Assembly: GCF_026151205.1 (NCBI RefSeq)
Contig: NC_087079.1
Span: 17,044,945-17,108,944, forward strand
DNA from: Bolinopsis microptera
Lineage: Eukaryota > Ctenophora > Tentaculata > Lobata > Bolinopsidae
Reading direction: 5' to 3'
DNA: 64,000 nt
Below the pieces are notes generated by a model. The model did no database searches, was not told the DNA's origin, and was given only the letters and a program-made list of their open reading frames with translations. Shown here one piece after another: positions 23,201-38,969 of the stretch. Made by a program: the position numbers and the translations under genes. The stretch's first letter is position 1. Every line of letters starts with the position of its first letter.

Positions 23201-26200
23201 TTGTCTTCAAAATCTTATTACTATCTCACAAGTCACTGTTAGGATTGGCACCAATTTATCTGCAGGACATGTTCAAGTATGCTCATCATGGTCACTCATT
23301 GAAGCTTATTGGTCCTTCTTGTAATTCAAAGTTTGGTGAGCGTAGCTTCTCTGTAGTGGCTCCAAAGATCTACAATCGTCTGCCTGTTACCATCACCTCT
23401 GCTCAATCTTTGGAATTTTTTAAAGCTTTTCTAAAAACTTACCTTTTCAAAATGTCTCCAGATGAACTTGAACAACTTTATCGATAACTATTGTGGTCAT
23501 ATTTGGAATTCGATGTTTGCATAATATATTTAAGTACCATTTTCGGGCTTTAGTATTGACGATATATTTCAAGTATATGTTATTTTTTAGCTCAGTATTC
23601 ATGATATTTTCTGGGATGACTAGTTCAAACACTGCTGAGTATAACTATAAGATTTATCTTAAAAGCGGTGTTATTAAATTTCAATTTATTATTATTATTA
23701 ATTTATTATCTACAGACATTTCAGAAAATTGGGTGTCTAGCATGTTCGGAAAGAACATAATAGGTAATTTAATAATATATGGGCGTGGTTTAAAATATTC
23801 GAATTATGGCGACGGAATCCTCGAATTAGTAATTACAGCATACCATCCGCAAATTTACAGGTCCCAAATATGAAACTAGGGGTTGATATAATGCTTAACA
23901 AGTTAAAACAAATTGTTTATGTCGTGCATCCTGGGTTTGGACAGGATAAAATACTTCCATCGCGTTACATTACATAATTCTCGATAAATGTAATAGATTT
24001 GTAGTGTTGTAATTAATTTAAAACGTTACTTTTGGCCCACACTGTACTCTCTCTCAGGGTGTTAGCATATTCACACTGTACATCTCTCTCAGGGTGTTAG
24101 CATATTCACACTGTACATCTCTCTCAGGGTGTTAGCATATTCGATGTCAGCCACATGCTACAGCTTCACATCCACGGAAAAGATAGGATAAAGTTTATTG
24201 AATCCATTCTTGGTAAATAACATGTTTTCTCTGATTTGTAGCTAGCCGGCTATTATATCGTTTGTAGCTAGCCGGCTATTATATGGTTTGTAGCTAGCCG
24301 GCTATTATATGGTTTGTAGCTAGCCGGCTATTATATCGTTTGTAGCTAGCCGGCTATTATATCGTTTGTAGCTAGCCGGCTATTATATCGTTTGTAGCTA
24401 GCCGGCTATTATATCGTTTGTAGCTAGCCGGCTATTATATCGTTTGTAGCTAGCCGGCTATTATATCGTTTGTAGCTAGCCGGCTATTATATCGTTTGTA
24501 GCTAGCCGGCTATTATATCGTTTGTAGCTAGCCGGCTATTATATCGTTTGTAGCTAGCCGGCTATTATATCGTTTGTAGCTAGCCGGCTATTATATCGTT
24601 TGTAGCTAGCCGGCTATTATATCGTTTGTAGCTAGCCGGCTATTATATCGTTTGTAGCTAGCCGGCTATTATTATATGATTTGTGCAAAGATTTGGGAAT
24701 TTTTAATAATGACAGTAACTCCCCACATTTAGAATTGTATTTCAGTGGCTGATGTGGAGTCACTGGCATTAGACACCGGCACACTCTCTCTGATGACTAA
24801 CTATTGTATTTCAGTGGCTGATGTGGAGTCACTGGCATTAGATACCGGCACACTCTCTCTGATGACTAACAATTGTATTTCAGTGGCTGATGTGGAGTCA
24901 CTGGCATTAGATACCGGCACACTCTCTCTGATGACTAACAATTGTATTTCAGTGGCTGATGTGGAGTCACTGGCATTAGACACCGGCACACTCTCTCTGA
25001 TGACTAACTATTGTATTTCAGTGGCTGATGTGGAGTCACTGGCATTAGATACCGGCACACTCTCTCTGATGACTAACAATTGTATTTCAGTGGCTGATGT
25101 GGAGTCACTGGCATTAGACACCGGCACACTCTCTCTGATGACTAACTATTGTATTTCAGTGGCTGATGTGGAGTCACTGGCATTAGATACCGGCACACTC
25201 TCTCTGATGACTAACTATTGTATTTCAGTGGCTGATGTGGAGTCACTGGCATTAGATACCGGCACACTCTCTCTGATGACTAACAATTGTATTTCAGTGG
25301 CTGATGTGGAGTCACTGGCATTAGACACCGGCACACTCTCTCTGATGACTAACTATTGTATTTCAGTGGCTGATGTGGAGTCACTGGCATTAGATACCGG
25401 CACACTCTCTCTGATGACTAACAATTGTATTTCAGTGGCTGATGTGGAGTCACTGGCATTAGACACCGGCACACTCTCTCTGATGACTAACTATTGTATT
25501 TCAGTGGCTGATGTGGAGTCACTGGCATTAGATACCGGCACACTCTCTCTGATGACTAACTATTGTATTTCAGTGGCTGATGTGGAGTCACTGGCATTAG
25601 ATACCGGCACACTCTCTCTGATGACTAACAATTGTATTTCAGTGGCTGATGTGGAGTCACTGGCATTAGACACCGGCACACTCTCTCTGATGACTAACTA
25701 TTGTATTTCAGTGGCTGATGTGGAGTCACTGGCATTAGATACCGGCACACTCTCTCTGATGACTAACAATTGTATTTCAGTGGCTGATGTGGAGTCACTG
25801 GCATTAGATACCGGCACACTCTCTCTGATGACTAACAATTGTATTTCAGTGGCTGATGTGGAGTCACTGGCATTAGATACCGGCACACTCTCTCTGATGA
25901 CTAACAATTGTATTTCAGTGGCTGATGTGGAGTCACTGGCATTAGATACCGGCACACTCTCTCTGATGACTAACAATTGTATTTCAGTGGCTGATGTGGA
26001 GTCACTGGCATTAGATACCGGCACACTCTCTCTGATGACTAACGAGGAAGGTGGTATTATTGACGACTGTATTGTTCACAAATCTTCTGCTGGTTTTCTT
26101 AACCTAGTCTGTAATGCTGGCTGCGCTGAGAAAGACTTCGCTCATATCAGTGTAAGTAATTAAGTATAGATAAAATAGCTGAATGTATTTTTCACCAAAA

Positions 26201-38969: not shown

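Follow-up and report, generated by a model that had tools for sequence, protein, structure and literature searches.

Tandem repeats whose units extend across intron-exon boundaries have been described in amphioxus as mirages, found in several genes, at 5' as well as 3' boundaries (PMC3087553; PMC3902484). Their units range from 10 to 160 bp and carry AG or GT signals, unit number varies between haplotypes, and the genes concerned include Adh3, the globin genes BflGb6 and BflGb9, TnC, and PGBD5 (PMC3087553; PMC3902484). RT-PCR results suggested that mirages apparently leave splicing undisturbed (PMC3087553), and the boundary-spanning minisatellites of amphioxus have been put forward as a way in which new introns may arise. 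Mirages have so far been reported from cephalochordates. A literature search that included ctenophore tandem repeats, with most subscription papers outside its reach, found no report of mirages in ctenophores; in Hormiphora, 13% of the genome consists of tandem repeats.

The arrays found at four splice acceptors of a glycine-cleavage aminomethyltransferase (AMT) gene of the ctenophore Bolinopsis microptera are of this known kind, now in a distant phylum and with larger arrays. A glutamate-receptor sequence of this genome has ML032222a, a receptor of the ctenophore Mnemiopsis, as its closest relative of solved structure; a search of the assembly for COX1 gave no match. A first-pass annotation of the locus had assigned them to no described class, a view that the amphioxus mirages overturn. 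Boundary-spanning units, occurrence in several genes and at both boundary types, and differences in unit number are shared with amphioxus. The AMT arrays differ in reaching up to 80 units and four acceptors per gene, in being known here from DNA alone, and in their host, which lies outside the present taxonomic scope of mirages (not a mechanistic criterion). Intronic minisatellites or VNTRs are comparable in that they occur in the same genome, with similar unit lengths and instability, and 26-bp and 16-bp arrays of this type are present in AMT itself; unlike these, the acceptor arrays take in exon sequence and the splice site. In the Rogers model of intron gain by AG/GT tandem duplication, with cases in Drosophila (PMC2891723), the duplication likewise carries splice signals; AMT differs in that no new intron is seen, its frame fitting the last acceptor without an extra exon.

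AMT gene model and acceptor arrays

Exons 3 to 9 of the T-protein (AMT) gene are readable in the window (the whole 64,000-nt stretch of DNA that was analyzed), giving a 333-aa open frame with canonical AG/GT borders and junctions in phase when exons are modeled from the last acceptor of each array. Over the full length of a 172-aa part, this protein aligns to human AMT (1wsr; E = 3.9e-53). The exons and arrays are as follows.

24038-24142, + strand: 35-bp array of 3.0 copies across the exon 3 acceptor, the last AG lying before 24128 (TRF)
24128-24212, + strand: AMT exon 3, from the last acceptor (exon modeling; human AMT alignment)
24235-24672, + strand: 26-bp minisatellite of 16.8 copies within intron 3, away from the junctions (TRF)
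24733-26043, + strand: 69-bp array of 19.0 copies across the exon 4 acceptor, each unit comprising 13 nt of intron and 56 nt of exon (TRF)
25988-26151, + strand: AMT exon 4, from the last acceptor (exon modeling)
26557-27397, + strand: 16-bp minisatellite of 54 copies within intron 4 (TRF)
27534-27615, + strand: AMT exon 5, array-free (exon modeling; junction-duplication detector)
30317-30459, + strand: AMT exon 6, array-free (exon modeling; junction-duplication detector)
30587-31145, + strand: 63-bp array of 8.9 copies across the exon 7 acceptor (TRF)
31102-31285, + strand: AMT exon 7, from the last acceptor (exon modeling)
32589-32750, + strand: AMT exon 8, array-free (exon modeling; junction-duplication detector)
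36787-38797, + strand: 25-bp array of 80.4 copies across the exon 9 acceptor (TRF)
38788-38968, + strand: AMT exon 9, including the stop codon (exon modeling)

Exon 1 was not found, and exon 2 is unreadable in the window, falling in a noisy tract (16.3 to 22.0 kb). Relative to a second AMT copy, positions 16296 to 21988 contain errors of the raw-read type, with 1-bp indels about as numerous as substitutions and transitions making up only approximately 16% of the substitutions; the adjoining sequence from 22230 to 24072 is clean. A stop in window exon 2 suggested a pseudogene, but it was read as sequence noise because the tract is rich in 1-bp indels and poor in transitions and exon 2 of the second copy is readable. 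With window exons 3 to 9 also intact, the pseudogene interpretation was rejected. Elsewhere in the window, several blocks of a satellite with units of 124 to 136 bp between 53281 and 63852 have 77 to 89% unit identity and many indels, and are possibly unpolished too. Positions 12734 to 12928 hold 18 copies of TTAGGG between two 15-bp repeats, the units of which are near inverted complements (GACTCTAGGGCGTAA and CGCCCTAGAGTCTCA), forming an interstitial telomere-like palindrome.

TRF and the exon models agree with the first-pass annotation on the four affected acceptors and on their arrays (35 bp by 3, 69 bp by 19, 63 bp by 9, and 25 bp by 80), and in each array the unit straddles the AG junction as claimed. 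Approximately 14, 56, 44, and 10 nt of exon are included per unit at exons 3, 4, 7, and 9, respectively, together with 13 to 21 nt of intron end and the AG. All four arrays have 98% matches and 0 to 1% indels. Branch-point-like motifs are present in the units of exons 4, 7, and 9 (ACTAAC, ACTAAC, and CTGTAAC, respectively), with the (A)CTAAC of the exon 7 array arising at the boundary between units, and each of these units could constitute a complete acceptor.

A junction was scored as duplicated when an 18-mer across it, extending 4 nt or more to either side, recurred 10 to 105 nt away with no more than two mismatches. This detector recovered all AMT arrays and gave 0/708 false positives on local shuffles. 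In the window AMT gene it flagged exactly the four acceptors listed above, at which the intron-exon boundary is contained in the repeat unit, and none of the donors or remaining acceptors. The exon 4 and exon 9 units, the two that were searched for, occur in the genome only at the two AMT copies; a dispersed satellite was therefore rejected as their source, and the arrays were made locally. Separate origins of the four arrays are supported by their unrelated units and by this confinement of the searched units to AMT.

A second AMT copy and instability of the arrays

The second AMT copy lies in inverted orientation approximately 145 kb away, at C8:17.204-17.236 Mb (17204001-17236000), and differs from the first by approximately 0.5 to 1% substitutions in clean tracts and flanks. 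The two may be paralogues or unmerged alleles; bearing on the latter, the assembly (264.65 Mb) is larger than the published k-mer estimate of genome size (254 Mb). Near-identical neighboring kinesin pairs resembling the AMT pair were also seen, one inverted (C11:11303567, - strand, and C11:11341653, + strand) and one direct (C13:4982550 and C13:5070304), which are either true duplications or unmerged haplotypes.

Unit numbers differ between the window and the second copy at every acceptor array: 3 and 1 at exon 3, 19 and 2 at exon 4, 9 and 3 at exon 7 (8.9 and 2.9), and 80 and 28 at exon 9 (80.4 and 28.4). In the second copy the boundary lies within a repeat unit at three acceptors. Arrays containing no splice site differ as well, with 17 and 30 units for the 26-bp minisatellite (16.8 and 29.8) and 54 and 64 for the 16-bp minisatellite. 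The second copy also has a 49-bp array of 39 units that stops approximately 9 nt short of the exon 2 acceptor, which it does not include; approximately one unit of this array is present in the window. At exon 4, the two units of the second copy match in type the first two units of the window, whose array combines both types with a recombinant type in a mosaic. The array therefore already had two or more units before the AMT copies split, and expansion or contraction occurred later.

Inflation of copy numbers by long-read assembly errors could be considered, as unpolished stretches with raw-read-type errors do exist in the window (16.3 to 22.0 kb). The arrays, however, lie in clean sequence with near-identical units, and the second copy has arrays too, with other unit numbers and unit variants, making an assembly artifact very improbable. 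Because the second copy carries arrays with other copy numbers, the AMT arrays are real, and their instability shows within about 1% divergence, whether the copies are alleles or paralogues.

Acceptor choice and reading frame

Conceptual use of the first acceptor of each array causes a frameshift at exon 3, with a stop after 25 aa, and at exon 9, with a stop after 19 aa; at exons 4 and 7 the frame is kept, and 414 and 168 aa, respectively, are added. The exon 4 array falls in a 476-aa open frame. An intact AMT protein frame is obtained only with the last acceptors, which, on the evidence of the reading frame, are probably the ones used.

The first-pass annotation had offered selection for redundant acceptors as a possible cause. 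The benefit would be robust splicing or protein variants from the in-frame 69- and 63-bp units. These two units are indeed multiples of 3 with no in-frame stop. The 35- and 25-bp units, however, shift the frame and lead to early stops, so that at exons 3 and 9 the earlier acceptors do not preserve the frame. Two multiples of 3 among four units is about the chance expectation, and in-frame units were accordingly rejected as a mark of selection. Nor is any unit number conserved, as even near-identical copies range from 3 and 1 to 19 and 2. Such selection is considered highly unlikely.

Duplications at acceptors, at donors, and within introns

The annotation had asked whether arrays are more frequent at acceptors than elsewhere, and this was checked on a sample of the genome. 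Pfam profiles picked out the exons of genes for TCP1, myosin, kinesin, and aldehyde dehydrogenase, and those of other genes with a GCV_T domain; consecutive exons were then paired by the best in-frame donor-acceptor combination, giving 118 introns, 116 of them outside AMT. Among these 116, junction duplications were found at 1 acceptor and 5 donors. With unpaired exon ends added, the counts were 4/171 acceptors and 5/159 donors (Fisher P = 0.74), in a small sample of conserved gene families, limited to units of up to 105 bp and comprising nine non-AMT events, two of which are doubtful. The doubtful events are a myosin acceptor (C3:9157378) and an aldehyde dehydrogenase donor on C5 (splice score, -1.6); without both, the counts become 3/170 and 4/158. 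Within introns of the non-AMT sample, 94/1,576 positions were duplicated (approximately 6%, positions within one intron not being independent), and the rate at any single distance from the junction was 5 to 9/116. No tandem duplication was detected at any of 1,593 exon-interior positions of this sample.

Three clean acceptor arrays were identified, all in kinesin genes.

C2:6087295, - strand: kinesin acceptor array, 49-bp unit
C12:14430588, - strand: kinesin acceptor array, 26-bp unit, at least four copies
C13:6736836: kinesin acceptor array, unit of approximately 22 bp

Four clean donor arrays, with units of 32, 38, 53, and 53 bp, were likewise found in kinesin genes, and the C12 gene has one acceptor array and one donor array. 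Arrays thus affect genes unrelated to AMT and both 5' and 3' boundaries. At the sampled junctions, boundary arrays are recurrent in the genome, with no enrichment at acceptors and a frequency not above the intron background. The proposal of a recurrent process acting on acceptors therefore holds in part: the separate origins within AMT and the same event at the three kinesin acceptors uphold recurrence, and specificity for acceptors finds no support in the counts.

As a separate observation, a 30-bp array of 61 copies (C13:6710848-6712675) takes up the greater part of a chaperonin-gene intron and ends near the acceptor, ahead of the TCP1 exon at 6712683. Its units contain ACTAAC, so that a branch-point-like motif is repeated approximately 60 times.

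Origin of the arrays

The arrays are best explained, with a probability of about 0.8, as boundary-spanning minisatellites (mirages) derived from a minisatellite background that runs through introns, extends past boundaries of either type, and is eliminated from exons. Tandem duplications of 20 to 70 bp would arise throughout introns in this ctenophore, the genome of which is rich in minisatellites, and would then grow or shrink, the observed instability being attributable to slippage or unequal exchange. Exonic duplications would be removed by selection, in line with their absence from the sample. Duplications straddling a boundary would be tolerated in part, since the intact exon still adjoins a full splice site and the extra copies turn into intron. 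The boundary rate of 2 to 3%, against approximately 6% in introns, suggests that many, although not all, boundary duplications are removed. Acceptors and donors would be hit about equally, as in the sample, with AMT as an extreme gene that underwent four events, all at acceptors.

A recurrent process specific to splice acceptors, such as slippage at the branch point and pyrimidine tract or replication errors linked to R-loops, and strongest in AMT, would account for the presence of arrays at 4/8 AMT acceptors and no donors, for the branch-point-like motif and AG in the units of exons 4, 7, and 9, and for the clean acceptor arrays in genes besides AMT, of which there are at least three. It is nevertheless improbable, given that sampled donors are affected about as often as acceptors and the intron interior more than either, that AMT also has arrays containing no splice site, and that the branch-point region falls in any acceptor-ending array by position alone.

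The concentration of arrays in AMT was assessed by the probability of at least 4/8 acceptors being affected in a gene, which is 1.9e-5 at the sampled acceptor rate and 3.6e-5 at the pooled junction rate. Under an assumed 15,000 to 20,000 genes, the expected number of such genes is a fraction of one. AMT, with arrays at half of its eight acceptors and at no donor, is thus an outlier, roughly the most extreme case expected from a reading of the whole genome. A locus-specific cause or excess at AMT is possible, and gene-to-gene heterogeneity remains compatible with the data because the sample is small. A reading in which AMT and similar genes are subject to locus- or acceptor-specific instability, duplications of branch point, tract, and AG being made or kept preferentially at acceptors to give concatenated self-contained acceptors that may be alternatively spliced, is unlikely, if marginally less so than the acceptor-specific process.

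Implications

By analogy with intron gain by tandem duplication, arrays of the AMT type are possible precursors for which such gain would be the next step. Gene predictors may make false exons from such arrays, as exemplified by the long open frame at exon 4. If the sampled rate holds genome-wide, the genome would offer many natural test cases for the choice of the spliceosome among identical acceptors or donors. In a ctenophore, mirages occur at approximately 2 to 3% of sampled junctions, reach 80 units, and differ greatly between near-identical gene copies, which suggests that minisatellite-rich genomes generally produce them.
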